Of a DNA stretch of 64,000 nt, positions 535 to 42,786 are shown piece by piece (positions within the stretch are counted from its first letter, which is position 1; the number at the start of each line of letters is the position of its first letter). The stretch is taken from assembly GCA_029964075.1 (NCBI GenBank), contig CM057149.1, positions 28,286,197 through 28,350,196 of the forward strand. The letters are read 5' to 3'. The position numbers and the translations under genes are program-made. The notes under the pieces were generated by a model. The model saw only the letters and a program-made list of their open reading frames with translations, had not been told where the DNA came from and did not search any database. Source of the stretch: Patiria pectinifera (taxonomy: Eukaryota; Echinodermata; Asteroidea; Valvatida; Asterinidae).

Positions 535-539
535 GACCA

Positions 540-18904: not shown

Positions 18905-19150
18905 GATACTTGTGACTTGACTTGTTTTTAGACCAAATGACTTGTGACTTGACTTGTGACTGGACCTAATGACTTGTGACTTGACTTGTGACTGGACCTA
19001 ATGACTTGTGACTTGACTTGGACTTGCAAATAATGACTTGTGACTTGACTTGGACTTGCAAAAAATGACTTGCTGCCACCTCTGCTAGGGACTGGATGAC
19101 TTGTGATTGACTTGTGATAATTTGTCGTGACTCGTGACTGACTCGATTAC
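18905..19150. repeat. GACTTGTGACTTGACTTG minisatellite, block 2
   Basis: Units of about 24-28 bases, for example TGACTTGTGACTTGACTTG followed by TGACTGGACCTAA or GACTTGCAAA, repeated in tandem. Open frames across it are repeat artefacts. Confidence 0.85.
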
Positions 19151-20269
19151 AACTCTGAGAAGAATAACCGAAAATACGAACAAGAATTGCCACTAGACAG
19201 AACGAAGAATACAAGCAATATACATGTAGGTCACACAATTGCGACAAGTATACAATCCGTAATATGATCGGCCTTTGTTAAAGTCTTAAAAACAAAAGCA
19301 GATATTGCCATACATCGTATTGAAGAGACGTCCGAAATCCTGATCATTTCCTAAAAATCACAATCCTCTATCGCACAAGCCTAACATGTTGTCAAATGAT
19401 ACAAATACCCCACGGTTTTATTACCGACACTGTTGGTCTTTGTATCTTTGATTTAAATGCTAAGATCAGATTCATATTCCCTCTTTCTCTTCTGCTGGTT
19501 GTAAAAATCCAGATTTGAACGGCTGTTAAACAACGGCAACCATCACAACCAAAGCATCCTGATGTTACAAAGCAAAGATGCCACAACTGCAACACGGAAT
19601 ATGTTAAAACCTTGCGACTTGTAATCGCAACAACAGCAACCGAAGAAGTCAACGATCACAAGAAGGCCAACATGATAGTCAATTTCAACACACACATGGC
19701 TTTGTTTATAAGGCATTTTTATGTACTTTTAAAATTCCTCTTTGAATTGACCAGATTGTCTGCGTTGGGTGGATATATGATCCGCAAAGCTCTAGCAATC
19801 TCACCACTCATCCCACTTAAACCTGGCAACTTCCCCTCAACCTGGCTCCCATTAAGACCCGTCTCATTTGATAATCGTGTCAACACTCAAGAGAATCCAA
19901 GATACATGTGGGCACCTAATCAAGCTCTACAAAACACACGTTTCCTCGCTTTTACTTTCAATTAACCAAATCGACCTGACATACTGACGCGCTTCGTCTT
20001 GAGCGTCAAACTAAGACAGCTTTCCTGCAGACCTGTACTGGGTTTTCTGTACGGATATACTCATGCACTTTATTTTTCCAAACCTTGCAACCAAACTGAA
20101 AAGTATTTCGCCTAAAGTGCTTCGACATCGGATAAGCAATTAAGCCCGCGCCCGTATGCCGTTGGGAGTTGCACCCTTAGGGAACTGACTTAATGGTCAG
20201 CGGAAAGGCTTTAATTCCATTCTATTAGGCGGTGCTATCACCCGTTAAGTGACATTTGAGGGAGTGACC
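19151..20269. other. Intronic sequence, nothing certain
   Basis: AT-rich; several open frames of 60-117 codons without splice signals, family motifs or biased composition. No repeat partner was noticed. Confidence 0.3.
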
Positions 20270-20289
20270 GTTCTCAGCACAAACTCCAT

Positions 20290-20410
20290 ACCCACAGACC
20301 TTCTTCACGAGGAAGCCATTTTTGATCGTGTTCCCTGAATGTATTGTATAAATTGTAAACTGTTGAATGGAATGGTGCCAGACTATTTACGCGTTCCAAT
20401 CTTCCTTTTC
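20290..20410. repeat. Fragment related to the 23.1-23.5 kb foldback
   Basis: The segment GTTCCCTGAATGTATT...ACTGTTGAATGGAATGGTGCCAGACTATTTA recurs (split here) at about 23418-23480 and, inverted, at about 23158-23215. Confidence 0.6.
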
Positions 20411-20439
20411 ATTTTTTTTTAAAATAGGGAATTAATGTG

Positions 20440-20730
20440 TGCTTGGCCGGTTTTTAAAACTATGTTTAAGACAGGTTGGAGTCTGGATGCTGATTATTGA
20501 CCCGAGCCGAACCCATTCATCAATACCTTTTCGGTCCAACAGACAAAACAAGTCACAAATTATATATTTCAACGATTTTGTTCAACATTATTTTACTTCA
20601 TGTTTTTCGAAACACCCCTCTAGCTATGCTATGGTATGGTCTTCTCACGAGTCGTCGTAAACAAATCCTTATATGGAGATTGGCGCGCGTCGCGCGCACT
20701 GCGTGCTTTGACGCAGAACGCAGCTGTGCC
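20440..20730 (+). repeat. Dispersed element, inverted relative to 35084-35330
   Basis: AATACCTTTTCGGTCC, TTTTGTTCAACA, TTTTACTTCATG and GGAGATTGGCGCGCGTCGCG occur in the same order on the opposite strand at 35084-35330. The GC-rich end around 20680-20725 gives it a distinctive signature. It is noncoding. Confidence 0.65.
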
Positions 20731-22949
20731 GGTGTATTGTTTATTTAGGACTATGAAATACTGACTCACTGATAGTATTGCGCATGCTTACGTGAGGAAT
20801 GTGATCGTTCAACCAATATAACGGCACTGGCACCGGATTACATAGGTGTCCAAGTTTCGTGTGACACTGGAAAAGACCAGCCAGTCGGTCTTTATCAACC
20901 GTTTAAACCGGCCACATGACGGGCTCTCGACCAATAGGAATGGGTGAAAAATAGCTAAAACAATGGGGTCATGTTTAATCACAAATTATATATTATCCAT
21001 CAGAGCAGCGGCTGGTGTTAATTTTTAATTAACTTTATATCATTTCGTTCATTTCTATCTTCTTCCCCCCCCCCAAAAAAAAAATCGGGTAAATTTTAGT
21101 AAAACAATTGAAAAAATGTCACCCACATTGAACAGGGCCCGCCTATTGTGCCTACCATATCCAATAAAGGCTCATTTAAGTGCTGCAAATAGTTTTGCTC
21201 GACCGAAGTTTTATTAAGGGTGTGTGTTGTGAAACATCCCTTTTGCCACGTCTATGGTAGGCATATGTGCCTCGCGCGTAGTTCTACAAAACATCGACCT
21301 TCGCTCCTAATATCAAAGGCGAAAATAGCCAGTACCTCTAATACCAATGATGAAGGTCAAGGACAGTACTCTCAAGAATAACCTTACGGCGGCCTTTAAG
21401 GCGCCAAACTTAAGCAGGGTATAAAAGCGCCATTTGACGGCGAAGAGATTGCAGGTACGTGCTACTCAACAACAGAAGTAACCGCCTTGATAGGAGATTC
21501 TAAAGGGTCACCTTAGTTAAGAATGCTCCAGATTTAGACGGTCGTTGATAGACAATAAGCTCAAGTTTATGAGCAGTGATCCAGTCAGCCAAAGTCCGGA
21601 TGCTCAGGTGGAGGGAGATGCTACGTCCCTATAATCCCCAAATGATTGTCTCAGAAACCAGGCTGATAATGGCCGCACGACCTTGAACCGTCCGAATTTC
21701 TCAAAAGCCGTTGCTGTATTGCCGGCACTGCGGTAGGGTTATCAGCGACTGCAGAATGAGGCTAGTTTCCTTCCACAACAACCACGATAAGCAGCCAACA
21801 CCCTGGGGAAGAGGACGTGCTGAATGGGCGGTGCCCGTGAATTTTGACCTTGATGTGTCCACACTCGTTCCGAGAGGTACTCACCTAGCGAATATAGTGA
21901 TCCGTCAACTTGAACGGACATTCGTTGGTGTGTAGGCAGAACCAGGCCTATACATACCCTAATGGGAATCACTGATAAGTAACACTAATGTCTATGTGTT
22001 TCGAGGAGAATCGTCCTGTAGATTTACTTGGTTTCAATGTACATTTAAAAAAATATATATGTTATACATGTATACAAGCAGTGATCCTGTTGTTCATTAC
22101 CGTGTTCATGGACTATAGGCATATCATCTGTATACTGTCCGTACTCGACATTCAATTCGATTTTTTTCTCCAAACGCTTTTAAAATTGTATGATTTATTA
22201 ACGACCCCCACTCCTAATGTTCCTTTTTGGGGCCTTTTCAACCCTCTAAAAAAAATAATACAAGTTTGGGTTGCTTTTGCGCACAAACAGATCCATCCTG
22301 CGAGTAGACTGCTTAGTGGCCACATGTGGGTCGGGAACCAACCTACCCTCCATTGCCTGAACTTCAGTGTCGAGCCGCAAATAGTTAGACATGTGTGAAG
22401 TAATTATTCCACGATTATAAACGTTGGAAGATTTTACAATCAATGTCTCATTCAAAAGTGAATAATTTTTGTATGCTGGGAAATTAAGAGATCAAAAACA
22501 AAATCTCGAAAATAGCAAGGAGAGAGTGTCTATAAATCACAGGCCCTGATATCGAAAAAAAATCTCGGCCAATTTAGCCACGGTAAGACAAATGTCAGTA
22601 ATACAGGGACCTCTGTCTCTTCACCCTTAATTTTAAACGTTTGGACTTTCACAAAAAGTTGGACGTGGATCGTAGCCAAACACTACACTGCAGAAACTGT
22701 GTTTAGCAATTAAACACCTTTCTAAACATTTTAATTCTTGCTCTCAGTTTCTAAACATGTCTTCATGTAAACATGTTTAGAGGCCTGTTATTAATGGCTA
22801 TTAGTATTTAGCGATTGAATATTGAAGTTCAGGAAATGGACATTATGTGGAATTTTTGTTTGTTCGAATTAGCAGGTGACATCTTTAAGACGATTTCCAG
22901 CAAATAACCTGCCAGAAAATCATGTAAAGAGTCTACGGGATTAAAGGTC
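20731..22949. other. Mixed intronic sequence with a TATA-like site and a short ORF
   Basis: The part from 21200 to 21960 is GC-balanced. GGTATAAAAGCGCC at about 21418-21431 looks like a core promoter. Downstream, an ATG at 21756 opens 59 codons to TAG at 21933 (starting MRLVSFHNNHDKQPTPWG). I could not match the peptide to a family and found no partner exons, so it is not called a gene. The rest is AT-rich and featureless. Confidence 0.25.
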
Positions 22950-25800: not shown

Positions 25801-26387
25801 ATCGGGCGGTTCTATTACAGTTATGATGAATTAGGTACCCAGAGGCACAAATACAATGCTGATTTCTCAACTTGTTTTTGCATATTCGCCCCAAAGGCTA
25901 AAAGCCACTCCAGGCACAGAGCCAAAAGAGAAATTAAAGGAAGAGTACAGGTACTCGGGAAAAACTGCAGAGGTAGGAACTAACGTTCCTCTAGAAAACA
26001 AAAACAGGAAAGATTGTAGGCTGGACTGGAGAGAATCAAGCATCGAAAAAGCTATATTAGAATATCATTTTTTTTTCTACATCTAGGTACTGCCACAGTA
26101 TAGGATGAGAACAGACAGAGAACCGAATTTCTGTCTCATAACATGGGTAAAATTGCGGACATGCAAAGTCTTAATGCTGGATGTGTTCAACTCTCATTGT
26201 ACAATATGGCTTACGTATCAGGATGGGTGTCGATTAAAGGGTACAGAGACTGATTTTGATAGCTTCCCAATGTCACATAACCTCGGGAAAAGCTGGGTCA
26301 GTAGATGATAAGGTTGACTGAACAAGGAATGTCACATTCAATATTATTCAATGACACTGATAATACTACAAGTAAACCAGACGGGTT

Positions 26388-26446
26388 GATATCACGTGAC
26401 CGATCTTGTCATGTTACTGAATTTGTCAGGGGTTCGAATATATAGC
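26388..26446 (+). promoter_or_regulatory. Core promoter of cysteine-rich peptide gene 1
   Basis: A CACGTG E-box (26393-26398) in the context ATCACGTGACCGATCTTGTC lies about 40 bases upstream of a TATA box (AATATATAGCG, 26437-26447). The arrangement and local sequence are conserved in the copies at 34.5 kb and 38.84 kb. Confidence 0.65.
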
Positions 26447-26469
26447 GTTGGCATTTCCAAACCGATTCA

Positions 26470-26543
26470 GACAGCCAGTTAGAGCAAAACGGAAAACGAC
26501 AAGACTTTGTGCAACTTAAACATTCATCAACCGTCAACTGAAG
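26470..26543 (+). other. Noncoding first exon (5' UTR) of peptide gene 1
   Basis: About 25-30 bases after the TATA box, a block ending ATTCATCAACCGTCAACTGAAG is followed by donor GTATGCC. The same block precedes the donor GTAGGCC in gene 2 (exon end 38999). It contains no start codon for the peptide. The start coordinate is an estimate from TATA spacing. Confidence 0.55.
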
Positions 26544-27159
26544 GTATGCCTACGTTTCTTTCCTCCGTACGAATTTCCAGTTTTGGGGTTAATTCTGAAC
26601 TGTTATATTTCTTAGCTGAGGGTTTGTAAAGTTAGGTAGCTACGACTACGATGTTCTTTTAACTTTCCTTCAATCTATACCAAAAAATGACGTAAGTTCT
26701 CAAATTTGCTAAAATTGTCAACTTGTGCATTTAATTCAAACACTCTTCATCGAGATATGAGATGTAGTTATATTTTCCAGTACCACTGTTATTATGTTTC
26801 TTAGAGCCAGATCGATATAGAATTTGTTCGTGATCTTGTTCTTGATATACACGTAGGCCTAGTTGTTGTTTATTCCATTTAGTTGTTATTTTAATTATTA
26901 TTTGTTTACATATCAACACCGATGAATAGCGCTCGAACAATTAAAATGATCGGCTCATGCAATCACATAACAAGTACGCAATATTCGTCGGGACACCGCC
27001 ACCCATAATCGTTGTTCCAGCTGAAGTGTATGAGCCCAAAACTCGGCGTCTGAGCACCAGATTTATGGATGTCAAGCAAGTGGCATTTCAATGTGGGTAA
27101 TCAGGTCCCCACAATAAAGCATATGCAAGTCTCGCCAGTCCACGTTCACGTTTCGTGTT

Positions 27160-27496
27160 AGCCTTGACCAAGGCTGTCACGCTTGTTCCCCAAACGAGCT
27201 TGTTCCCGCTACGGCACACCGCGCCGCACACACTACAGCCTACTACTGTACAGCCTCAACGACCTTTGCATGTGCTTTGTCTGCACGTACGTACGTACGA
27301 CACATCCGTAAACAGCCGTATAGTAAGGCGGGTACGTAGTAAACTTGTGTGTGATGTACGTACGTGCAGACAAAGCACATGCAAGGGTCGTTGAGGCTAA
27401 CGGTAGTAAAACTTAGTAGCGTGTACGGCGCAGTGTGCTGTATGTAGTGGAAACAAGCTCGCTTGGGGAACAAGCTTGACAGCCTTGGTCAAGGCT
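27160..27496. mobile_element. 337-bp foldback element in intron 1 of peptide gene 1
   Basis: Long arms: AGCCTTGACCAAGGCTGTCA (27160-27179) pairs with TGACAGCCTTGGTCAAGGCT (27477-27496), and pairing continues through GCATGTGCTTTGTCTGCACG. ACGT microsatellite lies near the loop. It is absent from the corresponding place in gene 2. Confidence 0.85.
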
Positions 27497-28137
27497 ATTT
27501 GGTGTGAGTGTCTTGGTACATGTACCTCACACTGACTAGTATAGGCACAGACCCGTGTTTGAATTCACCCAATTGTTATCTACGGATCGGTCCAACGAAG
27601 ATCAAAGTTTTAATTGTATGATAGTCATCAAATTGCACATAATTAGTTTTGGTCTGTTCTTAATTGAAAATCTTTTTCTTCTTCTTCAAAGTATCCATTT
27701 ATTGCCCTTGATAGGATGGCCCAGTCTGGAAACAAATATAGGACTTTATACACGTTTTGGGTCGTATGGTTCCCGGATGTACTCAATTCTTGTAAAATCT
27801 CACAGATTTGTTGTTTAGGTCAACAACTGTGTTACAAGAAATGTTTTCGAAAAAGAAACTATTGTTTATCAAAACATTACACTCTGACGTCTCGATGTTT
27901 GAGAACCAAACATAAACCAATCTTAGAGACTGGCGATCCGCTTTATTTAGTTACCTTGGCTTGATAATAAATTGATTTTGTGCTAAGCACTTTCGACTAG
28001 CAGTCTCAGGAATTATGCTCTGAATCATAGTTTCTTAAAATAGAGCCAAAATTGGAAACGTGGCGGCTTAAAAAAATATATGTATAGGCATTCACTCCAC
28101 GCTCATAAAAAGCACTGTTAATAGGTTGGTCACAAAC

Positions 28138-28269
28138 CTATGTTCCGACACCCCTATGTTCGGAATGTTCATATTCCTATCCCTAACCCTAACCCTAACC
28201 CTGTACCCTAACTGGGAGTATCACAATCTGATGTGCGGGTTGTCAGAACATAGGGGTGTCGGAACATAG
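28138..28269. mobile_element. 132-bp foldback enclosing telomere-like repeats
   Basis: Arms CTATGTTCCGACACCCCTATGTTC (28138-28161) and its near-exact inverse (28246-28269) enclose (CCCTAA)3.7 at 28181-28202. It is missing from the corresponding place in gene 2, so it was inserted there or lost from the copy. Confidence 0.85.
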
Positions 28270-28768
28270 AGCAGTCACCTTTAAGTCAAGCTATGCACGC
28301 CGTTCATGTCGCAGGCTCCATTAGTCACAGTAAAAATGCATTGAATTGCAGACTTTTTTGTCCCGTTGACAAACCAAACATTCCATTAATGTAAGCATTT
28401 ACGTCGGTGAAGGGCAAAACCAAAAATGATTTTACATCTCCCCGATGGAAAAAGGCCTTTATACAAAAAACAACATCAATGAAGTACCCAGTCACTCGGA
28501 GTTGTGCTGTGGGGTCGAGAGTCAATTAACTCACTCATAATTTCAAAATAAAATTTAGTTGTTTCTTATCGTGGACTGATGTTGAAGTTTATGTGAAAGG
28601 TATTAAATTATGACGGAATTAGCAACAAAAATAATAATGATTGGGACGTCGTGTCTGAAATGTACAGTTTTTAATTAACACTCGAGTTGATTTGTTGCAT
28701 TTGTTTGCATTATTAACTCAACTCTTTCTTTCTGTCTTCGTTTTTTCTTTCTTTAGAAATCAGCAACA

Positions 28769-29689
28769 ATGAAGGCAACCACCTGTCTTATTCTTGTGTT
28801 GTGTCTCAGCTGCGCCATGGCAATGCGTTGGGAAGATGGTGCGTGAATGAAGGATTCATTACTTTTACGTATACGATTATTGCTTTTGCGTCCAATTTGA
28901 CATTTGCTAGTTAGCACATAACTTTGAGGTTATTCGAACATGCATGGTAATCTTCATTCTGAAGTAGGCTCTATAATGACAACCAAGCTCCCGAATTCTG
29001 AGTAAATTTTGGTTCTTCTCGATTTATGATGCAGTTTAAGAGAGGACTACACACTTGCCTTAATAACACCCTCATTATTGGCACGATATAGCCAAACAGT
29101 TGTTGACTGCTGTGATGTGGAGTATGCCGTTTTTAACCCCCTCGGGGCGCATAGCATCCTCGTCGCGCCCCTCGGGTGTTACAAACGTCACATCCTACAT
29201 CAAGCAGTCAACAGTTGTTAATTCTTTCATCTGAATAACTCTGTGATCGCCGGCGTTGAAATTCTTTTTGTGACTTGTGTACAGAGGAAATTGGTGAAGA
29301 GAAGGAGCTGATGCGTCTGCGTGACTTGCTGGATAAATACCTTGCCAAAAGAGGTACGTTTTTAAGGCCAATATTCTGGACGGTCATTTTTTCAGGCCAT
29401 TTTGACCCAGAAGAGTGCCATTTTGACCCGGAACAGCGTCAGGTCAAATACGATCCGGATTTGGGGTCAAATCTGACCCTGGACGAAACAATGATATGCA
29501 TGCATGCATGCAGTATGCATGCATAGTTCCTTATGATGAGCCGAGCCTATTTAATCCAGATTTTTAATTTCAGTGGGGTTTTATGCTTTATATTCTTGTC
29601 ATTATTCACTAGGGGAGTGTTCTCGGGATGAAGACTGCGCCTTCGGGAAGCATTGCTTCACTGGGAGATGTATGACCTGGGTGGACTGA
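28769..29689 (+). CDS. Secreted cysteine-rich peptide precursor 1 (3 coding exons)
   Basis: Coding exons are 28769-28838, 29285-29353 and 29613-29689, with donors GTGCGTG and GTACGT and acceptors TGTACAG and TTCACTAG; exon 2 starts at 28757 after TTTCTTTAG. The 71-aa product has a signal peptide MKATTCLILVLCLSCAMA, an acidic propeptide (EEIGEEKELMRLRDLLDKY) ending AKR, and a 25-residue mature peptide beginning GECSRDEDC with framework C-x5-C-x5-C-x4-C. The CxxDxDCxxGxxC pattern recalls short Dickkopf/colipase-type half domains, but no family is certain. Secretion with cleavage after Lys-Arg suggests a hormone-, defence- or venom-like peptide; which one is not shown. Each intron interrupts a codon after its first base, the phase-1 pattern of exon-shuffled secreted proteins. 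ATTAAA near 29850 may be the polyadenylation signal. Confidence 0.85.
29095..29219. mobile_element. 125-bp foldback in the second coding-region intron upstream of exon 3 of peptide gene 1
   Basis: AACAGTTGTTGACTGCTGTG (from 29095) is inverted at CAAGCAGTCAACAGTTGTT (to 29219). The centre contains CCCCTCGGGGCGC and its partner GCGCCCCTCGGG. Gene 2 lacks it. Confidence 0.8.
29385..29495 (+). repeat. TTTTGACCC repeat patch in the last intron of peptide gene 1
   Basis: Several copies of a CATTTTGACCCGGAA-type unit, ending GGGGTCAAATCTGACCCTGG. A longer version occupies the same intron of gene 2 (41450-41735). (ATGC)n follows at about 29497-29525. Confidence 0.75.
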
Positions 29690-30024
29690 TAAAATCCGGC
29701 ACTCTGCGACCGAACGAATTTCGACAAGTAACTCAATAATGGGTTCATGGGATTTTAAAGTCTAGCTTTGTATTTTAGGTCGAAATAGCGGCTCAATGGA
29801 ACAAAGCTGTATCATAATCTTTGTGAGTGCTCTTTTATATAGCTATGCACATTAAAGTGGTCTGCCTTATAGTTAGGATCTACATAGATGTAACCGGTAT
29901 GCGTATTCTGTGAAATGTTGGCTTTTCAATCTTTGTAAAGCCATAATTTGAAATTTCATATAGGCCTACATGTCATTCTGTTTATGCTGATTAAAACAAA
30001 AATATTAAGTAGAAATTAAAATAA

Positions 30025-30346
30025 CAGATTGGTGATAAGATTGTTCATTTGATGAAAATTGGCACACAGTCAGAGTAGACCTATGTCATGGGTAAGATAT
30101 TTGGCTAAAGGGCCATCGCAGATTTGTCCTTTGACAAAAATATCATAGAATAGCAAGCAATTTTCAAAAATTTTCAAAAATTTTCAAATGGCGGCCATTG
30201 CATAATATCCTATGATATTTTTTTCAAATGACAAATTTGCGATGGCCCTATAGCCAAATATTTTTCTCATTATATACTCTGACTGTGTGCCAAATGTAAT
30301 GTTGTATCACTAAATGAACAACTCCATCATATTGTGCACCAATCTG
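30025..30346. mobile_element. 322-bp foldback 3' of peptide gene 1
   Basis: The ends CAGATTGGTG (30025) and CACCAATCTG (to 30346) are exact inverses. The arms continue with GGCACACAGTCAGAGTA/ACTCTGACTGTGTGCC, GGGCCATCGCA/TGCGATGGCCC and a central run of TTTTCAAAAA. It is absent from the equivalent place in the second duplicon. Confidence 0.85.
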
Positions 30347-31764
30347 CCTGACTATAATTTTATACCCTGTGGGTATAACTTCGGGGTGGATGCACAATTT
30401 GATCAAAGGCAACGCTGTTTAAGGGTATGTTGAAATGGCAGTTTCACAACGTTGATATGCTTGTCCTATGTCCTCTTTAAAGTCCACACCACGACGGCTG
30501 ATTGATGAGGATAATTTGAAATGGAGCCACTTCATATCAAAAATGAAGTTAGCACGAAACAGCTGCAACATAAAACATGCGTAACATGCGTAAGCTTTTC
30601 TTCAACAGTTTTCACATAGCTTTCTTTTTTTGATTTTTGGCAGTTTTTTTCCTTTGAAAACCTTCATGTCAAAATTGCTGAAATATGATATCTTCAATTA
30701 TGTTTTCTACACTTCTTTCCCAGCATCATATGACTATATATCGTATCATGTATATGAAACAAAATGTACACATCTGAAGCGTATTGGAAATAAATTTCAG
30801 GCTGATTAAAATTATAATTATTCATTACATGTATTATCTAGAAGAAAGAAAGGGGGATTGCCCGACATACATTTGAGAATTCCATTGAGAACACTGGTCA
30901 CACAATTGGTGGAAAAAGAATACAAATTAGGAAATTCATGTATGTTTTCCCGCTCTATAATTCTTAATATATAACTGTTGGTAGAGCACAATTTTATCGA
31001 CCGTCGAGAAATTTTTGCTGCAAGTGCAGGCACTGTTGATATTGCTCATGTTTTAGGGTGAAAGAACAGAATAGGTTTGATTTCTTCGAAGTGAAAAAAC
31101 CTAACAAAATAAAACCCTAGGATGGTTAAGCTATTCTAATTGTTTAATGAGCACCTTGAGGTTTTCAATTTGTTTCCGTATCTAGTTAATCAAAGAACAA
31201 ACACTGTAAACATGTTTTCTGATTGTTTTTAGACATCAACTTACTTCTTGGTACCTCTGGAAGAGTGTGAAGTCAATTTCATATTATTAAAATAATTGCA
31301 ACAAATGGCTTCATTAATTAGTTGTTATGTTTGCATTATTATTACAGTGCTCGGAGTACCCTATATTGCTTTTAAAAATTCCAAGTGCTACTTCTTTAGT
31401 AGATCAGAGACAAGAACGTCCTCATTGATACAATTGCCTGCTCAGAGGCGTAAATCTGTGCCGTTTTTTTAAGGGGGGTCAGGGATGACTAAAATAACAA
31501 AAATGCCCGGTTGTGGCAATTTTAAAACTGGCGTGGGAGGGGGGTATGGCGGGCTTGCTGGACACCGCGTGACGCTAGGGGTGCTGTTCATGACACCGAT
31601 GTACATCTTATGTATGCTTACAGCAGGATCCAGAAATTTTCGCAAGGGGGTGGAGGGTTCATCGGCAAAAAAAAGTCTGAAATGTAGACAGAATTTGTTT
31701 CCAGACTCTTGGCCTCCGAAGGTCAATGGGTGGATGGGGGGGGGGGTAATCACGATTTCAAGCA
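30347..31764. other. 3' flank of the first duplicon and unique sequence
   Basis: From 30347 to about 30840 the sequence parallels 42240-42765 (e.g. TTGGAAATAAATTT and ATTCATTAC), marking the right part of the duplication. The remainder is unique AT-rich sequence, plus a G-rich stretch 31470-31750 with no gene. Confidence 0.45.
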
Positions 31765-31802
31765 CACTCTAAAAACTTAATTTTAACATTTTCGAAGTGT
31801 TA

Positions 31803-32179
31803 GGCCAAAAAAAAAATACTCGGTCTCTGGTCAGCGCGCGCGTCGATTTTAAACATGCGCGTCAACCTTTTTTTTATTTTCAAATTAACACGGAAGCTAC
31901 AACAGCGCCCTCTATTGCCGCGCTCCTCAAATTTTTGTACCAAGGAGCACCAAGGAATGGGGAAATTGCACCAAGGCAAATGATAAAGGGCACCAAGGCA
32001 AATTATGGAGGACACCAATGTATAATGAGGACACAAAAAAGCAAAATAGTACCCACCTTGTCTGTACAATACAAGCTTGGAAAAAAAAGCCACCCCCCCC
32101 CCAAAAAAAAAACCAGCGTCGCCGCATCAATTCCGGAACTTCGGTCTGACCAGAGACCGACTATTTTTTTTTTTTGGCC
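31803..32179. mobile_element. Harbinger-like MITE, copy 1
   Basis: The ends are GGCCAAAAAAAAAA...TTTTTTTTTTGGCC, followed inward by CGGTCTCTGGTCAG and its inverse CTGACCAGAGACCG. TTA occurs on both sides, a 3-bp target duplication typical of PIF/Harbinger. The second copy is 56146-56527. No transposase. Confidence 0.75.
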
Positions 32180-32397
32180 TTACTACCAAAACAACATTTC
32201 AAATGTTGCAAAAGGTTATTCCAACTCTTAGTTATGTTAAATCTAACCAACTTGAAGATGTGACTTTTAACATTTTAAAGGTGTTGTGAGTTTTCCCGCA
32301 TAGACGCATGCGCAGTAATGTATTAGGCGACTGGGCGATTTGATAGCGAGTTCAGCGTGCCGCGCGCGCGCACTAGATCATTTTCCGTCGAGCTCGG

Positions 32398-32998
32398 ATA
32401 TGGCGTTGCGTTTTTCATAAACTTTTTTCCTAGATTTGACCAGCATCGCCGACCATCATGATATAATCAGTTGAGTAAAGGTGAGATTTTTTTATACTGA
32501 AATATTATATCGTAGGAACACTGCACATTTTGATGTTAATACTACTTTTATATCGTACGAAATTGACGGATAATTTTAGACCTTAGTCCTAACATATCGC
32601 TATACATTGTACGTATACGTACATACGTGCATTTGATTTGCGTTATGTATCGATACATGTTTAAGTACGTATCTTACAATCGACAGAAGCATGACCAATC
32701 TTTAATCTTTACAATCTCAGAAATGTGTACATGTATTTTGATGATGACCATGTATCGATACTGTACATCACGCAAATCAAATGCACGTGCGTACGTACAT
32801 GTATGGCGGTATAGGGTCTTAAAATAATCTGTCAATTTCGTACGATATAAAAGCAGTATTTACATAAAATTGTGCAGTGTTCCTACGATATAATATCTTG
32901 GTATAAAACATCTCACCTTTACTCAACTGGTTATATCAGTATGGACGGCGATGTTGGTCGATGTAGGACGAAAAGTTATGAAGAACGCAACGCCATAT
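32398..32998. mobile_element. 601-bp foldback with ~270-bp arms
   Basis: ATATGGCGTTGCGTT at the left pairs with AACGCAACGCCATAT at the right. Pairing continues almost to the centre through GAGTAAAGGTGAGA, ATCGTAGGAACACTG, TCGTACGAAATTGAC and GCATTTGATTTGCGT. It is entirely palindromic, with no coding frame of its own. Confidence 0.85.
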
Positions 32999-33492
32999 TG
33001 GAGCCCTTACTATCAATGACATTCTCTGTTTTTATTGGTCTTTTTTGCGTGCATTTGAAGGATAATATTTTTTTGACATTATAATAGGTCAAAGTAACAC
33101 ATTTAAAGAGTAACAAATAGTTGTTTCAACAGTTTCAAAGGTTGAATAGCAACACTTTTTTAACACCTGGCAATGGGTAAAGAGGTAACTGAATAGTTGT
33201 TTGAACATTTTAAAAGGGTCAGATCCAACACTTTCCTACACTTTTCCAACATTTTCAAAGCGCCGGATCCCAACACTATTTTAACACTTGGAAAAGTTTT
33301 GAAAAAGAGACCGACACTTTTGTAACTTTCTAAAAGTGTTGGAATTCGTAACACTTTGGAAAGTGTTGAATCAACGTTTAAAGTGTGGTCACTGATCGAA
33401 CACATAGCAAGTGTTGAGCTTATCATTTATAAAGTTGGATTTAACACTTCAGTTTTTAGAGTGCAGGATGGCGTTATCCGCCAAATGGATTA

Positions 33493-33750
33493 TGTGCTGA
33501 CACAACAACGAATCTTTACGACAGCTAGATATCCAAACTTCGGGTAAATTGAGGTTTCTGCCTGCAATGACATCACACTTTTGCTCATGAATATGAAAAT
33601 TTGCATGAACATAAAAACTGAAAAGGTACCAAAATACCTTTGAAAATGACAAAAAGAAAAAAAAATCGAAAAAAATATTAAGTGTGACACAAAGGTACAT
33701 ATTATCCAAGGATTGAAGGATTGTTACATTACATTGCACGAGCCCTTTAA
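33493..33750. mobile_element. Family B MITE, right-end fragment
   Basis: It starts at GTGCTGACACAACAACGAAT, runs through AATGACATCACACTTTTGCT and stops at GAGCCCTTTAAG. It lacks the left half seen at 11200. Confidence 0.65.
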
Positions 33751-34159
33751 GTTTCCAGAAGATGCCATACCTTTTTATATTTTCACTTTTTTGACAAACT
33801 GTATTTGGTAATTGATGCACTTAATCGTGTATTCTATGCTTGTATTTATCATTTCGGTATGGGAATATATGTGAGATTAAATTGAATTGAAAAAAGTTAT
33901 TCCAATTGTTTGAGGAATCTGATGGGGTTTCCAATTTATGTCCACCTGTAACTAGTTAATTAACAAACATTTGAAATTCGTTCGAATAGAATAGCCATAG
34001 AATAAGGCAAGTGCTTTATTTTAAAGTAAGTTTTTTCGTTTCTTGGCATTTTTTTTAATGTATTGCACAATGGTGTAAACGTGTAAAAATAAATAGACAA
34101 CTAAAGTCTGTCATAAGCCAATACAGCTCATCAGACTGGCGTTTATCGATTGAAGATAT

Positions 34160-34352
34160 TTCTATTCCCACCTACATAGAATGCCTGTCCATCGCTGGTG
34201 CCTGTACCCATTTATACTCCTGTGTGGAGAGTGGCAAAGGGGGGGGGGGGTTAAAGTGGCTTGCCCAAGGACACACATATGGCCAGCAGCTGGTTTCGAA
34301 CTCCTGACCCTCTGATCACGAGTCACAAATCCGAACCACCAGGCAACACTAC
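34160..34352 (-). repeat. tRNA-derived SINE, same family as 1190-1430
   Basis: On the - strand: GGTGGTTCGGATTTGTGACT, GTGATCAGAGGGTCAGGAG, a B-box-like GTTCGAAACC, then TGTGTCCTTGGGCAAGCCAC. A G-run (34240-34250) interrupts the tail. Confidence 0.7.
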
Positions 34353-34406
34353 CCCTTATAAGGGAATACAGATGCTAAATATTTTGATAGATTTCCATAT
34401 TGTATA

Positions 34407-34600
34407 TAACCTCGGGAAAATCTGGGTCAGTGGATGATAACGTTCACTGAGCAAGGAATGACAAACCATTGGTATAGTCACTGACACTAATAAGGTCACC
34501 AAACGGGTTGAAATCACGTGACTGATCTTGTCACGTGAGTGATTTTTTTCTGGGGTTTCCAATGTATAGTGTTGGCATTCCCAAAGAACGCACAGGGTTT
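34407..34600 (+). promoter_or_regulatory. Orphan third copy of the peptide-gene promoter
   Basis: CCTCGGGAAAATCTGGGTCA, GATGATAACGTTCACTGAGC, ATCACGTGACTGATCTTGTC (CACGTG at 34515-34520) and GTGTTGGCATTCCCAA occur in the same order as in the promoters at 26.28-26.46 kb and 38.72-38.91 kb. The TATA position reads GTATAGTG (weakened). Homology ends soon after, and no peptide exon follows before the next unrelated sequence, so this looks like a remnant of a third gene copy. Confidence 0.65.
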
Positions 34601-35083
34601 GGGAATGGCTATATACAGCGAAATTCACGAGGGTGCTAATGGACCTTATTAGAGGGCAAGGTCTTTCCTTCTGCGATATACACGAGAGAATCGTTTGCAC
34701 ATTCATTATTACTGAGTTAAAATAACAAGATATACCCTCTAAGATGGCGTTCGCCGCTACGTACACTCGTACAAAGTCTATTATCAATTAGGCCTCGCAC
34801 AGAAAACACTTACTATGAACAGGTGCCTGAGTAAAGTGGAACGTGACGTGTAAACTGGCTTCCATACCACGATTTGCTTTCAGGCCCAGGTAATTAATTT
34901 GCTAAGCGCTATGGCGGCTCTTTAAAAGTAGGCTTACTGTGTAATATCGCACAATCAGTTACGAAGTTCAAACGTGCCATCTAAAATCAATATCACGGTA
35001 ATACAATTATCCGTTTGTATACGTGATGAATGAGTGTCGGAGCCTTTTCACGTTTCATATTATTTCATAGCCCGAAATTCACA

Positions 35084-35330
35084 CTACACCAGCCCTGCTG
35101 CGTTTTGCACGACATCGCGCAGTACGCGCGACGCGCACGCCAATCTCCTTATAAGGTAATGAGTTGTGGAGGGGCATTCCATATTATAGTCAGAGTCATG
35201 AAGTAAAATTGTTGAACAAAATGGTTGGCAACGTCTAGTTTTTAACTTGCTATGATTTTTGGACCGAAAAGATTTTTTTAGTACCAAAGGTATTTATGAA
35301 TGGGAATAAATATGTGTTCGGTCGGTATTA
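35084..35330 (-). repeat. Dispersed element, inverted copy of 20440-20730
   Basis: The same ordered blocks as at 20440-20730 on the opposite strand, including GGAGATTGGCG and GTCGCGCG. One end runs into the hairpin at 35331. Confidence 0.65.
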
Positions 35331-35416
35331 AACACTCTGTTTAAGACCCGCCGGTGAGAGTCTGGATGGGTGATAATTACCCATCCAGACTCCAACCGGT
35401 CTTAAACAGAGTGTTA
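35331..35416. repeat. 86-base near-perfect hairpin
   Basis: AACACTCTGTTTAAGAC at 35331 pairs with GTCTTAAACAGAGTGTT at 35400-35416. AGAGTCTGGATGGGT pairs with ACCCATCCAGACTCC, leaving a loop of about 8 bases. GTTTAAGACAGGTTGGAGTC at about 20463 shows it belongs to the same dispersed element. Confidence 0.85.
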
Positions 35417-35465
35417 TAATGCCTCCTGAGCACACTTTTATTCCCTTATTATTAACCTTCGGATG

Positions 35466-35972
35466 GTTAAAGGTTACACGAAGTGAATTTTTACAGGAAC
35501 ATGTTTTGTGCAACTTTCTACACCTCTTAAATGTACGTAGTAAGTATTTGACACCCCTTCTTGGTTAATTTTATTGAAAAGTGCACTTCTAAAAACATTT
35601 CAAATTGTCGGTTTTATATGAGTTTTCTGTTCAAATTGTGAAATAATGAATGGAAATATTTGTGAGAACAGTTTGCTCGTACTGACATAACAACGAATCA
35701 CCAACGAAAACAAAATAACGACAGCAAAATATCCAAAATTCGGGTAAACTTTTGTGCTGAAACAGCTGTAACCTTGAGGTTTCTGCCTGAAATGACATCA
35801 CACTTTTGGTCATGAATTATGGAAATTTGCATTGACATAAAAACCGTAAAGGCACCAAAACAACCTTTAAAATGGCTTAACGAAAATAGAACATAAGGTT
35901 AAATGGGACACAAGAGTGCATTTCCAAGGATTGAAGGATTGCATAAAAAAACACTATATTGCAAGGGCCCTA
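35466..35972. mobile_element. Family B MITE, nearly full length
   Basis: It follows the 11200 copy from the GTTTTGTGCAACTTTCTAC block through CAACAACGAATCACC and AATGACATCACACTTTTGG to GCAAGGGCCCTATA. It has lost the central GAGGGCGCT segment. Confidence 0.7.
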
Positions 35973-36028
35973 TACGTTATTCTAATTGCCTAATAAGTCT
36001 CTTGGGGTTCAATTAGTGTCCATCAGTA

Positions 36029-36430
36029 ACCGCCCTGAATCCTTCAAAATCCTCTTTGCCAAAGTGGATTGGGAAGATGGAGGTTAGGCCTACATGGCAA
36101 AAGTGCGTTAGTGATTTCGTAGGATGCACTTTGTCAAGGTCTTGGGCCAGACCTTGTATTGTTTTTGCTCAGCTATGCATTAATATAGGCCTGGATTATG
36201 CTTGAAATCCTCCGTACTGCTCCAGGATGTCACTGGCCAAGCCTCAACATATTGACAGTCACTGCCGCAGGATTTTGCAGGATTCAGGCAGGGGTCACCC
36301 TTCCACGGACCATATTCAAGAAATAATGGAGGATTTTGCAGGATTGAGGCTATATGCTATTTTCCATGAGGCCAGTTGGAGGATTTTGCAGGATTGAGGC
36401 TACATCCTAGCAAAAAAGGCCTATGGAGTT
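36029..36430 (+). repeat. 402-bp dispersed repeat, copy 1
   Basis: It starts ACCGCCCTGAATCCTTCAAA and ends AAAAAGGCCTATGGAGTTT. It has internal repeats of GGAGGATTTTGCAGGATTGA. The copy at 50510-50900 has the same orientation and looks very similar along its length by eye. No inverted ends and no coding frame. Confidence 0.85.
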
Positions 36431-36458
36431 TTAACACACATTTGGAAATTCGTTCGAA

Positions 36459-38320
36459 TTGTGTAAAACAAGGTCACTGCGTGGATAAGTCACGTTCAAG
36501 TTGACGATGATAGTACAAGCACACAACAAATTACAGACAAAACATCACAAGTAAGCTCTTTGTTTGCGTGCGGACAGACGTCTATTGTTCAATCTTGATC
36601 GAACCGCAGTTTTCCAATTTGCTTTGGAATTACCCAATTTAAACTGGCCCCTTTATCGCTATGATTTTTTTCCCACTGTGCAAGATAACAAAAGAACAGA
36701 GCTGTATTAACGTTCAAAATAAAATGTCACGTGTTTCAACCCCTAGTGGCGCATTTCTGGAACCCTTGACTATGAACATTAACGTACAAAAATTATAAAA
36801 TTTGCAATAAGTTTTGGTACATTGATTTCTTAAGAAAATCACCCTCGTAAAAGGTCTTTATAAAAATTGTTACTAGTATCTCCATTGATGGAAACTGAAG
36901 AATCGCCTGACATGAAAGAGAAATATCGTGCCAGAAATTGACCTTTCACTTTCGAAAATCTAAACTGCATGTGGACTAGTGAAACTCGGTGAGCTCGTAC
37001 AAAGATTAACATTCATAAAATAATTTTGGGGCGGTCAGTGGGTGAAAACTGAAAGTTAAAAAGGAGACTAAGATGTCTCTTTTATGATATACAATTCTTA
37101 TTAATAAATACCTTGGAGAGTTGATGGTTTCTGATTGGTCGAGACTCGATCACGTGGCCGGTCATTAACGGTGATAATGGACCGGCTTCAAAGATCAAGC
37201 GAATAAATGGCCCCTAAACCAGCATTGATCGAGCCCCGTTCAGCCCCATGCAAGCCAATGATTGGTCAAAATATAGTAACAGTCCTACGGTAGCTTTTAA
37301 CAATTGAGCACTGCACATGCGCTCAACCCCCATCGCGTGAGACTGACGTGCGCGTACGCAACACAGTTGCTAGGGATGCGTGCGTGCGCGCGCGTAAGGA
37401 AGTTTTGAAACGACATCGTACAGCAGTGCAGTATATAATGAGGATGTTTACGACGAAAGCGTAGATCCGATTTATTTTCTTCAATGAAACACTTCACCCA
37501 CCGACATATTTACCTTTCCTAAACCAAGCATCTTTGTAATTCCGGACACAAGGAATGTGTAAACGAGATTTCAGCTTCCTCCATCAGGTAAAGATATGAA
37601 AACATTGTTGTAATTTGTTTCGCTACGGCAGCAGTTTCTGTTGAGTTTACGTCGTTATAGCTGTTAAGCTAAAATATGGCCCATGAACATGAACACAAAA
37701 AAGTCTGGAAATGTCGCCGGAAAAAAAGTCACAAAATTGGAGCATTTTAACTGTTTATTTCGTTATAAAGGTATTTATTAATGGGAATAACAGTTAATGG
37801 ACCTCGACTTCGTCTCGGTCCATCATTATCACGCAGTGTTATTAATAAACTAGACGGGACTCATTAGCATTTACACAAAAGAATATTAAATGACCGCTGA
37901 TAAGGACCGAATTCACGTCTGCCCGACTAAATCTAGAATCCATCGGCTGTAGGTAGGTAAATCTTCGCTCCTCGAGCAAATACGAGATGTGAAAACAAAC
38001 GTGAACGAACAAGAAGACCTAGGAACGAAAATGCCTGATGTGAAAGGTCGTAAGCAAAATTCAATTTTTCCCATCTTCGAGTGATTTCGTATCATTTTTT
38101 TCCCTTGAGGAACACCAAGATAAACTTCCAACATGAATAATTCTTAGGATGATTACGGTTAGAAATCACTCTGTCCAAACTACATGTATAGCAAGAGAGA
38201 GGGCAACCCAGTGTAAAATACCCAGTGTAATAAAATGCCGGAAGCTGGCCGCGTGACCTTCACCTTAAGTACCCAGAGGCACAAATACAACGTTGATTTC
38301 TCAACTGGACCTAACATGAT
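36459..38320 (+). repeat. Upstream part of the second duplicon, with insertion
   Basis: 36459-36725 matches the 329-bp units at 25172-25800. 36738-37095 and 37845-38075 match 17520-18115. About 38270-38310 (ACCCAGAGGCACAAATACAA) matches about 25835. The segment 37100-37845 is an insertion whose ends, TTAATAAATACCTT and AAGGTATTTATTAA, are inverted. No peptide gene is present here. Confidence 0.65.
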
Positions 38321-38833
38321 AGAAGAAGTCAGCCCTGAATTAACTCAATCTGTTTTTGTGTGTAATAAATGCAAGAAAGACATGTGATGGGGGGGGGGGG
38401 TACACATAAAATGTTGAGGGATCATAATGTGGAAGTTCTGAGGCCTTTATAAAGTATCCTGGATGTGTTCCTGGTGTCATATGAACATCCGACTCCTTTG
38501 AAGATCTGACTCCTTTTCCCTATTATTTGTTAATCCCTCGCACGTGACAGGTCACTCTCCCATAAATAGCATATTTTCGGACTTATGCTTGCGCAATACT
38601 ACCAATGAGTCCATATTTCATGAAGTCGGATATTCACGCTACACTGGCATTGGTTTATGTATCGGGATGGGTGTACATAAGGGGGAACGCTGCCTGAATT
38701 TCATAATTTTCCAATTCCATGCAACCTCGGGAACAACTGGTGTAGTAGATGATAATGTCCACTGAGCAAGGACTGACGTATCATTGTTGCATTCAATGAC
38801 TCTGAGAAGGCTACTATGACAAAAACGGGTGGA

Positions 38834-38897
38834 AATCACGTGACTGATCTTGTCACAGGGAAAGGGGGATTCGTTATATATAGCGTGGTATATATAG
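38834..38897 (+). promoter_or_regulatory. Core promoter of cysteine-rich peptide gene 2
   Basis: CACGTG at 38836-38841 in ATCACGTGACTGATCTTGTC. It is followed by two tandem TATA boxes (TTATATATAGCGTG at 38873 and GTATATATAGCGTG at 38888) created by a local 14-15 base duplication. Gene 1 has a single TATA. Confidence 0.65.
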
Positions 38898-38919
38898 CGT
38901 GGCTTTCCCAAGCGGATTC

Positions 38920-38999
38920 AGATATAGCCAGTTTGACTAACACGGAAATCGAGAGACTTGGTCCAGCTATACTATTCATCAACCGTCAACTGAATTAAG
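38920..38999 (+). other. Noncoding first exon (5' UTR) of peptide gene 2
   Basis: It corresponds to the gene 1 block and contains TATTCATCAACCGTCAACTG before AATTAAG|GTAGGCC. The start is estimated from the TATA spacing. Confidence 0.5.
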
Positions 39000-40363
39000 G
39001 TAGGCCTGATAAGTTTTTTTTTCGTAAGATATTCAACTGCAATGGTTCCAAAGTTGGTTCATTACTGAGAGTTAGGTAGCTATGGACTATGGTGTTCTCT
39101 TATTTATTTAAATCTATACCAAAAAAAAATTAAGCAAAAACTACCTTTTTTCCAAATTAGTAGAACTTTACTCTCTGAAAAGCAAACACGTCTTCTTTAG
39201 ATTGCTTTTTCAAAAAAACAAAAAAAAACAAAAAAAACGGGGTCCACTTTGCGAGAGGCTAGACTGGTTTCCAGTCATAAAATCATCGCTGCTGAAAATC
39301 AAAGGGTGGGAACCAGTCTACGCTGCATGCGAAAACTGAATTACTGGTCGGGCTGGAAAGGATTTTTTTTTATAACAGAAAGTGGGTTGATTTTTTTTCA
39401 GTTGATGTCTCATTCAAAATTGACTAATAAACTTTGTAATGATAGGAACATTTAAAACCCTTCAAATGGATTCTAAAAATTGTTGTTTTTTTAATTCATT
39501 TTCGGTACCAATTTTGCAAAAAGCAAGGCCATACATTTTTGAAATAGAACCCCAAAAATGGAAGCTAAGGGCATCATATACAAAACGCCACTGTTAACTT
39601 GAACCCTAAACGCCATTTGGAACCAAGGATAAGAGAGTCCATTGTTATCTCTATAACACACTCCTTTGTGCAATCGTCACTATTCCCGCAAGTCAATCTT
39701 TCATCAAACGGATACGACCTTGATATTGATACAAGATGCCACCCTTGAATGTCGCAATAGATTGTGCAGCAGCTACAGGGTATATAGAGCCCACTTTTAT
39801 AGAACTGTTAACAATTGGCATTTTTTTGGTTCGAGTGTCTAAAATTGAAAACGTGAGCCAAAATTGAAAACGTGGCGGTTTTTTTTTTAATTAAAATCTC
39901 TGTTAAGCATTCAGTCCACATAAAAAGCCACTGTTTAGTTGCACAGATACTTGATTGATATGTTACTAGGATCGATTGTTCACTGTCAGTAAAAGTGCAA
40001 TGAAGTGCAGACTATTTGTTCCTCTTCAATCCCGTGAACAAACCGATCCTTTCATTACCTTGAACGTGATAAAGGACGCGATTATACCTTGGTGAAGGGC
40101 AAAACCCAAAATAACTATACATCTCTCCGATGAAAAAAGGTCTTTATACCCCCAAAAGGAGGGGAGTCAGATTTGTGCTGTTGGGTAGGGAGTCATTATT
40201 ACTCATTCAACATTTCAAGACGGACATTAGTTGTCACATGTACTTAATTATCGTGGACTGATGTTGACGTTTATGCCAAAGCCCTTCAATAATGACGGAA
40301 TTGGCAATTAAAAAAACCTAATAATCGGGACGCCGTTCTTAAATGAACGGCATTTCTCACTCA

Positions 40364-40619
40364 CAGGGTGGTGCAAAAAGGAGGAAACACACTTTTGACA
40401 GGAATTTCAACCTACTTACTTAAATTATTTGATTTTTTTTGTAGTTAAGTATAGCTCTTCAACTATACGTGGTGAAACTAATCTTTTTGAAAATTCCCAA
40501 GAATACTATTATTATGCTATCTAGAATGCAAGTCATTAAACTGAATTTTTGGAAATAAGCTCACCAGGTTGGTCAAAGTTTCTGTCAAAAGTAGGTTTCC
40601 TTCTTTTTGCACCAGCCTG
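40364..40619. mobile_element. 256-bp mariner-like MITE in intron 1 of peptide gene 2
   Basis: CAGGGTGGTGCAAAAAGGAG at the left and the inverse CTTCTTTTTGCACCAGCCTG at the right. The interior is AT-rich. Gene 1 has uninterrupted intron here, so insertion followed the gene duplication. It ends about 40 bases before the acceptor of the signal-peptide exon. Confidence 0.85.
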
Positions 40620-40671
40620 TATACTCGACTACTTCTCCCTATCTTCGTATTTTCTTTAGAAATCGACAACA

Positions 40672-41925
40672 ATGAAGGCATACACCTGTCTGATTCTCGT
40701 GCTGTGTCTCAGCTGCGCCATGGCAATGACTTGGACAGATGGTATGTGAATGAACGATTAATTGTTTTTATGTACGATTCTTGCATTTACGTCCATTTTT
40801 GCTTGTTGGCAAATAACCTTAATGTTATTCGAACAAGCATGGTAATCTTCATTCAAAACACATCTGAAGTATGTTCTATATGACAACCAAGCTCTCAAAT
40901 TCTGAGAAATTTCGGTTCTTCTCAACTTTTGATGTGGTTTAAGAAAGGAGATATTACACCCTCAGTTTTTGCAACAACATTGATTTCGAGTATAGTGTAA
41001 CAACAGTCTTAATATAAACATTGTGTGCGTGTATAACAACCATTCTTTCATCTGAATAACGTACTCTGTGATCGCCGGAAGTTGAATTCTTTTTGTGACT
41101 TGCACACAGACGAACCTGGTGAAGAGAAAGAGCTGATGAGTCTGCGTGACTTGCTGGATGGATACCTTGCCAAGAGAGACCGTAAGTTTAAGGCAAATAC
41201 AAAACGCAGCAGGCTTTGAGCGAATGAGGGCGCTACATTCTAGGTAGAAACACTAGTGAGACAAATTCCTTGCTTAAAACAGTCTCAGTGACTTTTGATA
41301 TTAAATATGAAGAAATAAATACTGTATAAAGGTAGTTATCTTTAGTTTGGAAATGAAGCAATATGTAAACTTACGGTCAATGAACTTGGATAAACGTTTG
41401 TTTATCCACCTTAATGGCGACGTTACAGCGCCCTCAATCGTTCAAGAATACACTCTAAAAAGTTTCGGGTAAGATTTGGTCCGAAATCAAGGTCAAATTT
41501 GACCCGACACTTTCCGGGTCATTTTCCGGGTCATTATCATTTTAATAACCGGGTCAAAATGGCATTTGTCCGAGACACTATTCCGGGCGATCATATTCCC
41601 AGTAACTTTGACCCGGAAAAGTGTCAATTTGACCCGGTAAAGTGTCATTTTGACCCAATGAAGTGTTATTTTGACCCCGAACAGTGTCAGGTCAAAATAA
41701 TGACCCGAGTTTCGGGTCAAATCTGACCCTGGAAGAAACAGTGCCATGCATACTCATGCACAGCTGACAGTTCACTATGACGAGCGGAGCCTATTTAATC
41801 CAGATTTTCAATTTGTGATTTCTTTTTAACATTTGTGTCATTATTCAGGTTGGGGATCCAAGTGCCAAAGGGATTTGGAATGTGGCAGAGGGTGGCATTG
41901 CTTAAATGGGTTCTGCAGGGAGTAA
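40672..41925 (+). CDS. Secreted cysteine-rich peptide precursor 2 (3 coding exons)
   Basis: Coding exons are 40672-40741, 41110-41181 and 41849-41925. Splice sites are GTATGTG and GTAAGT donors with CACACAG and TTATTCAG acceptors; the exon begins at 40660 after TTTCTTTAG. The 72-aa product has a signal peptide MKAYTCLILVLCLSCAMA, a propeptide containing GEEKELMSLRDLLDGYLAKR, then a mature peptide DRWGSKCQRDLECGRGWHC continuing to a fourth Cys (C-x5-C-x5-C-x4-C) and ending CRE. Exon phases are identical to gene 1; the last exon has exactly the same length (77 bases). Compared with gene 1 the precursor half is nearly unchanged, but the mature half shares little except Cys, RD, G and H. Net charge shifts from acidic to slightly basic. 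An AATAAA lies near 42036. Confidence 0.85.
41450..41735 (+). repeat. TGACCC-rich array in the last intron of peptide gene 2
   Basis: It starts ACACTCTAAAAAGTTTCGGG and contains about six units of the type GTGTCATTTTGACCCG, with inverted CGGGTCA units at the left. It ends GGGTCAAATCTGACCCTGG. A short version is in the same intron of gene 1, so it predates the duplication and later expanded or shrank. Confidence 0.75.
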
Positions 41926-42786
41926 TGTAACTGCACTGATGAAAGCTAGCACGGAACGAACGACCGACCGTATTTCGACAAGCAACTCAACAATGGGTAC
42001 ATGGGAGTTTAAAGTCTAACTTCGTATTTTGGGTTAAATAAAGGCTCAATGAAATACAGCTGTATTGTAATCTTTGTGAGTGCTCTTCATGTTGTTGTGC
42101 ACATTAAGGATTGAATGAGCATAGATGTAACCGGTATACCTATTCTGTGACATGTTTGCTTCTCAAGTCATATTGGTTAAGACTGATTTTTTAAAAAACC
42201 TGGAAATTAAAATTAGAAATTAATCATTCTAATTAATAGTCCATTGTCCGATGGCTGGATATAACCTGCGGGTATAAAACACAAGCGTGTATACACAATC
42301 TGATTAAAGGTGGTGCTGTTTACGATATAATTTTTTACGAATGTACAAGGACCTTCTGCAAGGCAGTTTGGCACGTTTACATGCTTATCCTCTCAATACA
42401 AATCATTACCACGACGGCTGATTGATGAGGATAGATTTAATAATTGAGCAACAAACACTTAATGATGCCAACACGAACCAGATAGCTGAAACATAAAACA
42501 GCCGTAACATACGTATACAACTGGTTTAAGAGTTTTCACAACTGGTGTCTTTAAACATTTGGTTGCAGTTTCTTACTTTTTTTTCTTTGAAAACCCGGAT
42601 TCGAAAACAGCCGGAACGTAATCTCTTTGAAAACAATTATTCACTCTAGCTTTTCACCATAATTATATTCTTTCTTGAATCATTCAAAGCTATAATGTAT
42701 TTGTGAGTGGTGTTTTGGAAATAAATTTGAGGGTAAAACTGCAAAATGTTATCTATTCATTACGTAGTTTTTATCTGAATGAAGCG

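Follow-up and report, generated by a model that had tools for sequence, protein, structure and literature searches.

The window, a stretch of 64,000 nucleotides (contig CM057149.1, positions 28,286,197 to 28,350,196), carries two genes on the plus strand, here called A and B, each of which encodes a small precursor with a predicted signal peptide, an acidic propeptide and a C-terminal peptide with four cysteines. The genes are tandem duplicates with start codons 11.9 kb apart and coding spans of 28769-29689 (A) and 40672-41925 (B). In both, a TATA-like box precedes a putative non-coding leader exon, which is followed by three coding exons, one for the signal peptide, one for the acidic propeptide ending in Ala-Lys-Arg, and one of 77 nt up to the stop codon for the four-cysteine peptide (Table 1). 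Intron 1 precedes the start codon, introns 2 and 3 have GT-AG borders in both genes, and both coding junctions are in phase 1. A preliminary description of this DNA had claimed the same exon layout, intron phases and equal last exons for the two genes, and we re-derived all of these for the three coding exons; the leader exon is a putative one, deduced from conservation and a common GT donor, and would be spliced to exon 2. A and B are similar from the promoter and leader exon through the coding exons to the 3' flank, and in a piece further downstream; of the introns, intron 2 shares in this similarity and introns 1 and 3 do so in part, with promoter, introns and 3' flank alignable at 68-81%.

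Precursor A (71 residues) consists of MKATTCLILVLCLSCAMAMRWEDEEIGEEKELMRLRDLLDKYLAKR followed, after the predicted convertase cut, by GECSRDEDCAFGKHCFTGRCMTWVD; precursor B (72 residues) consists of MKAYTCLILVLCLSCAMAMTWTDDEPGEEKELMSLRDLLDGYLAKR followed by DRWGSKCQRDLECGRGWHCLNGFCRE. The signal peptides and their cleavage sites were judged by eye, and the convertase cut was placed at the Lys-Arg site. The predicted mature peptides of 25 (A) and 26 (B) residues have the framework C-x5-C-x2-G-x2-C-x4-C. Through Lys-Arg the precursors differ at seven of 46 residues, whereas only nine of the 18 residues from Cys1 to Cys4 are common to both (the four cysteines and five others), so that nine of the 14 non-cysteine core residues differ. 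These counts bear out the figures given earlier (about 7 of 46, and roughly half of 18), and with them the picture of small secreted-type precursors with a Lys-Arg site, a conserved leader and a fast-changing four-cysteine part. The tails were said to swap length by three residues, which is correct after Cys4 (five residues in A, two in B); before Cys1 (two in A, six in B) the difference is four, three of the extra residues in B coming from exon 4 and one from an exon 3 that is 3 nt longer. The predicted mature peptides do differ in the sign of their net charge at pH 7 (-2.2 in A, +0.8 in B), and the propeptides carry -2.5 and -4.5, respectively. With two disulphides formed, the calculated average masses of the mature peptides are 2850.2 Da (A) and 3108.5 Da (B).

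A chance open reading frame was ruled out by the common splice structure, the aligned flanks and the behaviour of the framework in shuffled sequence: the exact pattern occurs at two places in 260 kb, namely A and B, and not at all in five Markov-shuffled versions. A loose four-cysteine pattern was not above chance (28 places versus 15-29 in the shuffles). We searched the window and 20 flanking stretches of 10 kb, that is, 100 kb on either side, for further copies. No other exon matches were found, tblastn giving beyond A and B only short matches with E-values of at least 0.9, and the local count is thus two genes and one promoter-only copy. This speaks against a larger local array within ±100 kb. 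The 'tandem family' of the preliminary description therefore stands as a tandem duplication, but 'family' is too strong a word for what is a pair within this range. When the assembly (613.5 Mb, 1020 contigs) was searched with an 801-base stretch surrounding the A promoter, two matches came back, A itself and the B promoter. The promoter-only copy, which local BLAST does detect, was not among them, which shows that this search lacks sensitivity.

Precursors of this kind have been described before, and the original report of the KARTESH peptides is said to be that of Shabelnikov in 2019. The preliminary description had recognised no described family, which cannot be upheld: according to the available text of PMC11891777, the KARTESH and CHUPA precursors of Asterias rubens, raised after injury, have the same architecture and are of the same four-cysteine kind. 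In both KARTESH peptides (KASH1 and KASH2; UPI000FECD03F and UPI000FECAB46) a signal, an acidic stretch and a convertase site precede a single C-terminal four-cysteine peptide, and in the CHUPA precursors (CHU1-3) the plan is the same, again with four cysteines in the mature part (PMC11891777). A and B show every element of this plan, from predicted signal and acidic region to dibasic site and four-cysteine peptide. Their mature lengths of 25 and 26 residues fall outside those of KARTESH (28-30, or 26 if amidated) and CHUPA (35-48), and for this reason we regard A and B not as members of either group but as precursors of the same kind, as judged by the described architecture. KASH2 further differs from A and B in carrying a C-terminal amidation signal, and CHUPA3 is without well-defined structure in vitro (PMC11891777). 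The nuclear magnetic resonance structure of KASH2 is a disulphide-directed β-hairpin (DDH) with C1-C3 and C2-C4 pairing, for which an origin convergent with that of the arachnid DDH peptides is argued; the function of KASH2 is given as unknown, and it evoked no response in human fibroblasts (PMC11891777). According to the same text, homologues occur in other echinoderms but not outside the phylum, although its authors could retrieve no usable KASH2 homologues from sea-star genomes other than that of A. rubens (PMC11891777). The word Kartesh in the available text of PMC13409769 is a place name only, and we found no description of A or B in the literature, which cannot be searched by sequence.

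Other four-cysteine peptides are less close. The single-domain DDH peptides of arachnids share a four-cysteine hairpin scaffold with a C-x2-[G/P]-x2-C turn, the consensus being C-x5-19-C-x2-[G/P]-x2-C-x6-19-C; the first three cysteines and the x2-G-x2 turn of A and B fit it, but their last loop is x4 rather than x6-19. LEAP2 has a signal, a pro-region, a basic site and a four-cysteine peptide with C1-C3 and C2-C4 pairing. Its human mature sequence, checked against structure 2l1q, begins with the same C-x5-C, but reads C-x5-C-x4-C-x4-C where A and B have C-x5-C-x5-C-x4-C, and its N-terminal arm is longer. PpCrAMP from Patiria pectinifera (Kim, 2018) is likewise a cysteine-rich sea-star peptide, for which a review gives a predicted β-hairpin. 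It reportedly has four cysteines paired C1-C3 and C2-C4, 38 residues, a cationic character and an intron within the mature region; on that description it differs from A and B, with their 25 and 26 residues, in length and charge.

The reading that we prefer is that A and B are convertase-released defence or injury-response peptides of a probable sea star, to which we give a probability of about one half. The main rival, which we consider somewhat unlikely, is that they are peptide hormones or neuropeptides, convertase-processed paralogous ligands, each with two disulphides, of one or two receptors. Hormone precursors usually show a conserved peptide and a less conserved spacer, and here the reverse is seen, with a conserved spacer and a core that differs at most of its non-cysteine positions between the paralogues. 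Neither A nor B has a Gly-basic amidation signal at its C-terminus. The amidation signal of KASH2 (PMC11891777) speaks for the hormone reading, as does the putative starfish neuropeptide precursor Arnp11, which, in the part of PMC4772807 available, has a signal, an acidic spacer, a dibasic site and a C-terminal cysteine-rich peptide, albeit with six cysteines.

The contrast between leader and core is also seen at the nucleotide level. A and B have identities of 0.866 and 0.884 in exons 2 and 3, respectively, and lower ones in the 3' flank (0.812, 223 bases), intron 2 (0.743) and, where they can be aligned, introns 1 and 3 (0.69-0.70). From Cys1 to Cys4 only 32 of 54 bases are identical (41% divergence), making the core more diverged than the 3' flank (Fisher P = 0.001) and intron 2 (P = 0.03). 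By the Nei-Gojobori method, the nonsynonymous (dN) and synonymous (dS) divergences are 0.119 and 0.196 for the 46 precursor codons (dN/dS 0.61; bootstrap 0.14-2.8), and 0.495 and 1.26 for the 18 core codons (dN/dS 0.39 on 9.8 synonymous sites; bootstrap 0-2.0). The preliminary description had expected dN/dS to be higher in the last exon than in the first coding exons and had named the contrary as a refutation; over the whole core the contrary is formally what is seen, but the bootstrap intervals overlap widely, and the core value is the lower one because dS is also higher in the core. Shuffling of codon columns between precursor and core gave P = 0.006 for the difference in the proportion of nonsynonymous changes (pN) and P = 0.013 for that of synonymous changes (pS).

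As a neutral yardstick we used the introns, of which only the alignable parts count, so that the neutral rate may be understated. At the intron-2 rate the precursor would have 28.0 nonsynonymous changes, and it has 12 (P = 0.0001). In the whole core there are 16 replacements against 11.3 or 13.6 expected (P = 0.08 and 0.27), no clear excess over intron rates. When the cysteine codons are dropped, the 14 remaining codons have 16 replacements against 8.7 expected at the intron-2 rate (P = 0.006) and 10.5 at the rate of introns 1 and 3 (P = 0.036), and pN (0.48) exceeds both pS (0.35) and the intron level; this comparison of 14 of the 18 core codons was chosen once the outcome for the whole core was known, and its P-values, which come from one gene pair, carry no correction. 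Three of the four cysteine codons differ between A and B, in each case only synonymously. We read these numbers as purifying selection on the leader and the cysteine framework, with loops that change at a neutral to faster-than-neutral rate; faster-than-neutral change is suggested, not proven, by this single pair. Of the rapid evolution claimed for the mature part, a loop rate at or above that of the introns thus survives, and an excess of dN/dS over the whole core does not.

The same numbers bear on a second rival, namely relaxed constraint, in which a functional leader is kept and the mature exon of A, of B or of both drifts near the neutral rate. A core dN/dS below 1, a core pN that does not clearly exceed the intron rates, and a promoter-only copy indicative of decay of parts of the array all agree with it. 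Drift does not predict that a core of such nucleotide divergence should retain all four cysteines, the reading frame and five other residues, nor the synonymous differences in the cysteine codons, and we consider this explanation improbable.

Database searches added little. Among 5.8 billion proteins there was one candidate homologue and none at E ≤ 1, and Pfam gave five matches for precursor A and three for B at E ≤ 10, all below threshold. Dickkopf_N (PF04706; 18.3 and 18.4 bits, cut-off 25), the EB module and DUF7107 matched weakly over the cysteine core, with 21-32 positions of profiles of 48-52 positions, all below the gathering score. A sequence search of the PDB gave DKK4 at E = 0.03 with a two-sequence profile; the best matches of A and of the mature profile were unrelated proteins (a Nab2 zinc finger and a methyltransferase). 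The KASH2 entries 8V2M and 8V2U were absent from the PDB matches of A and B at E ≤ 10, a search in which targets of 26-28 residues score low, and LEAP2 structure 2l1q was also absent at that threshold.

Single-sequence AlphaFold2 models of the mature regions, which include five or six intron-derived residues with an artefactual cysteine, had a mean predicted local distance difference test score of 86.7 (B) and 81.0 (A), and both show a strand, a short helix and a hairpin. The nearest structures, all weak matches, are mostly knottins, including the two-disulphide intermediate of MCoTI-II, and also Dkk4 and Dkk1. The KASH2 chains (26-28 residues) are not among the Foldseek matches listed (45 for B, the best 50 of 60 for A), which is uninformative either way, and they are too short for a second structure aligner. 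To the extent that models with intron-derived residues can be trusted, the predicted fold is a strand-hairpin near the knottins, consistent with a DDH.

A knottin-like fold would also suit protease inhibitors that bind by a cysteine-framed loop, as squash inhibitors do, but this explanation is less probable again. The inhibitory loop of squash inhibitors begins at a cysteine that A and B lack (the artefactual cysteine of the models sits there), and the E-values are not significant. The Dickkopf or colipase likeness noted in the preliminary description is weak: the Dickkopf_N score is below threshold, and Dkk4 and Dkk1 are fold neighbours in the company of many other miniproteins. A detached Dickkopf- or prokineticin-like module that would act on Wnt co-receptors or comparable partners, for which the Dickkopf_N and DKK4 scores and these fold neighbours speak, is very improbable for a segment of about 20 residues with four cysteines only, a score below the gathering cut-off, and unrelated proteins that score equally well.

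The promoter regions of A and B are 0.685 identical (232 aligned bases) and the leader exons 0.83 (81 aligned bases). The orphan promoter copy between the genes is 77% identical to the A promoter and 75% to the B promoter, and our search found no exons downstream of it. All three copies contain a 31-bp element with a CACGTG E-box, invariant at 28 of 31 positions and lying about 40 bp upstream of the TATA-like box in A; it is a candidate regulatory site. Long near-palindromes of 75-81% self-complementarity lie between and around the genes (27159-27497, 30059-30293, 32392-33004, 35302-35445 and 49100-49584) and are likely to be foldback elements or of miniature inverted-repeat transposable element type. 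A 400-bp direct repeat (36029-36431 and 50500-50900; 92.6% identity) is more alike than the gene copies. Short direct repeats around GGGTCAAA / TTTTGACCCGG follow one another in intron 3, at 29398-29480 in A and, longer, at 41460-41720 in B (read by eye).

Table 1. Features of genes A and B and of the promoter-only copy (window coordinates; UTR, untranslated region).
Feature	Positions	Strand	Details
Gene A promoter region	26207..26461	+	TATA-like 26437-26447; 31-bp element with CACGTG E-box 26381-26411
Gene A putative non-coding exon 1 (start approximate)	26466..26543	+	Conserved with B; common end before GT donor
Gene A exon 2	28757..28838	+	Start codon 28769, signal peptide, propeptide start
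Gene A exon 3	29285..29353	+	Acidic propeptide ending AKR
Gene A exon 4	29613..29689	+	Mature peptide GECSRDEDCAFGKHCFTGRCMTWVD and stop
Gene A 3' flank/UTR	29690..29929	+	81% identity to B, 223 aligned bases
Orphan promoter copy	34381..34585	+	31-bp E-box element 34503-34533; TATA-like GTATAG
Gene B promoter region	38651..38905	+	Doubled TATA-like TATATATAGCG; 31-bp element 38825-38855
Gene B putative non-coding exon 1 (start approximate)	38918..38999	+	Conserved with A; common end before GT donor
Gene B exon 2	40660..40741	+	Start codon 40672, signal peptide, propeptide start
Gene B exon 3	41110..41181	+	Acidic propeptide ending AKR, then D and one base
Gene B exon 4	41849..41925	+	Remainder of mature peptide DRWGSKCQRDLECGRGWHCLNGFCRE and stop
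Gene B 3' flank/UTR	41926..42166	+	Aligned with A 3' flank

Elsewhere in the window, an open frame for 390 residues, many of them Pro and Ser (4522-5694, minus strand), lies downstream of a frame with a transmembrane-like segment on the same strand (13416-13919), and the two could be parts of a single gene for a receptor that has a long cytoplasmic tail; Pfam gave no match at E ≤ 0.01 on the minus strand of 1-9999 and 12001-22000. A reverse transcriptase fragment at 58785-58949 (plus strand) matches RVT_1 below threshold (21.3 bits, cut-off 29.6). Rfam at gathering scores and ARAGORN found nothing in the window.

If A and B are indeed defence or injury-response peptides, their mode of action may be pictured as follows. 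In the secretory route the propeptide would balance the peptide and aid its folding, and a convertase of furin or PC type would cut after Lys-Arg. The peptide would fold into a β-hairpin with two disulphides (Cys1-Cys3 and Cys2-Cys4) and enter the coelomic or epithelial fluid. The fixed framework would then be a scaffold on which the loops change with changing targets, be these microbial surfaces, proteases or receptors, so that the acidic A and the slightly basic B have probably diverged in target since they were duplicated.

A bolder extension, which we find doubtful, is that A and B are founders of a lineage-specific system of two-disulphide mini-knottins that arose independently of KARTESH, CHUPA and the arachnid DDH peptides. 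Signal, propeptide and cysteine framework would have been held while the last-exon loops were driven apart after duplication, giving a small diversifying set for recognition or attack under a common E-box/TATA promoter.

If the genome is that of a sea star outside Asterias, four-cysteine precursors of this kind exist elsewhere in sea stars. Sequence searches may overlook them, since the mature exon changes quickly and it is the leader, gene structure and promoter that stay recognisable. The combination of leader, intron phase and promoter would then be a practical handle for collecting such genes, for dating the origin of the fold in echinoderms, and for testing function and selection.

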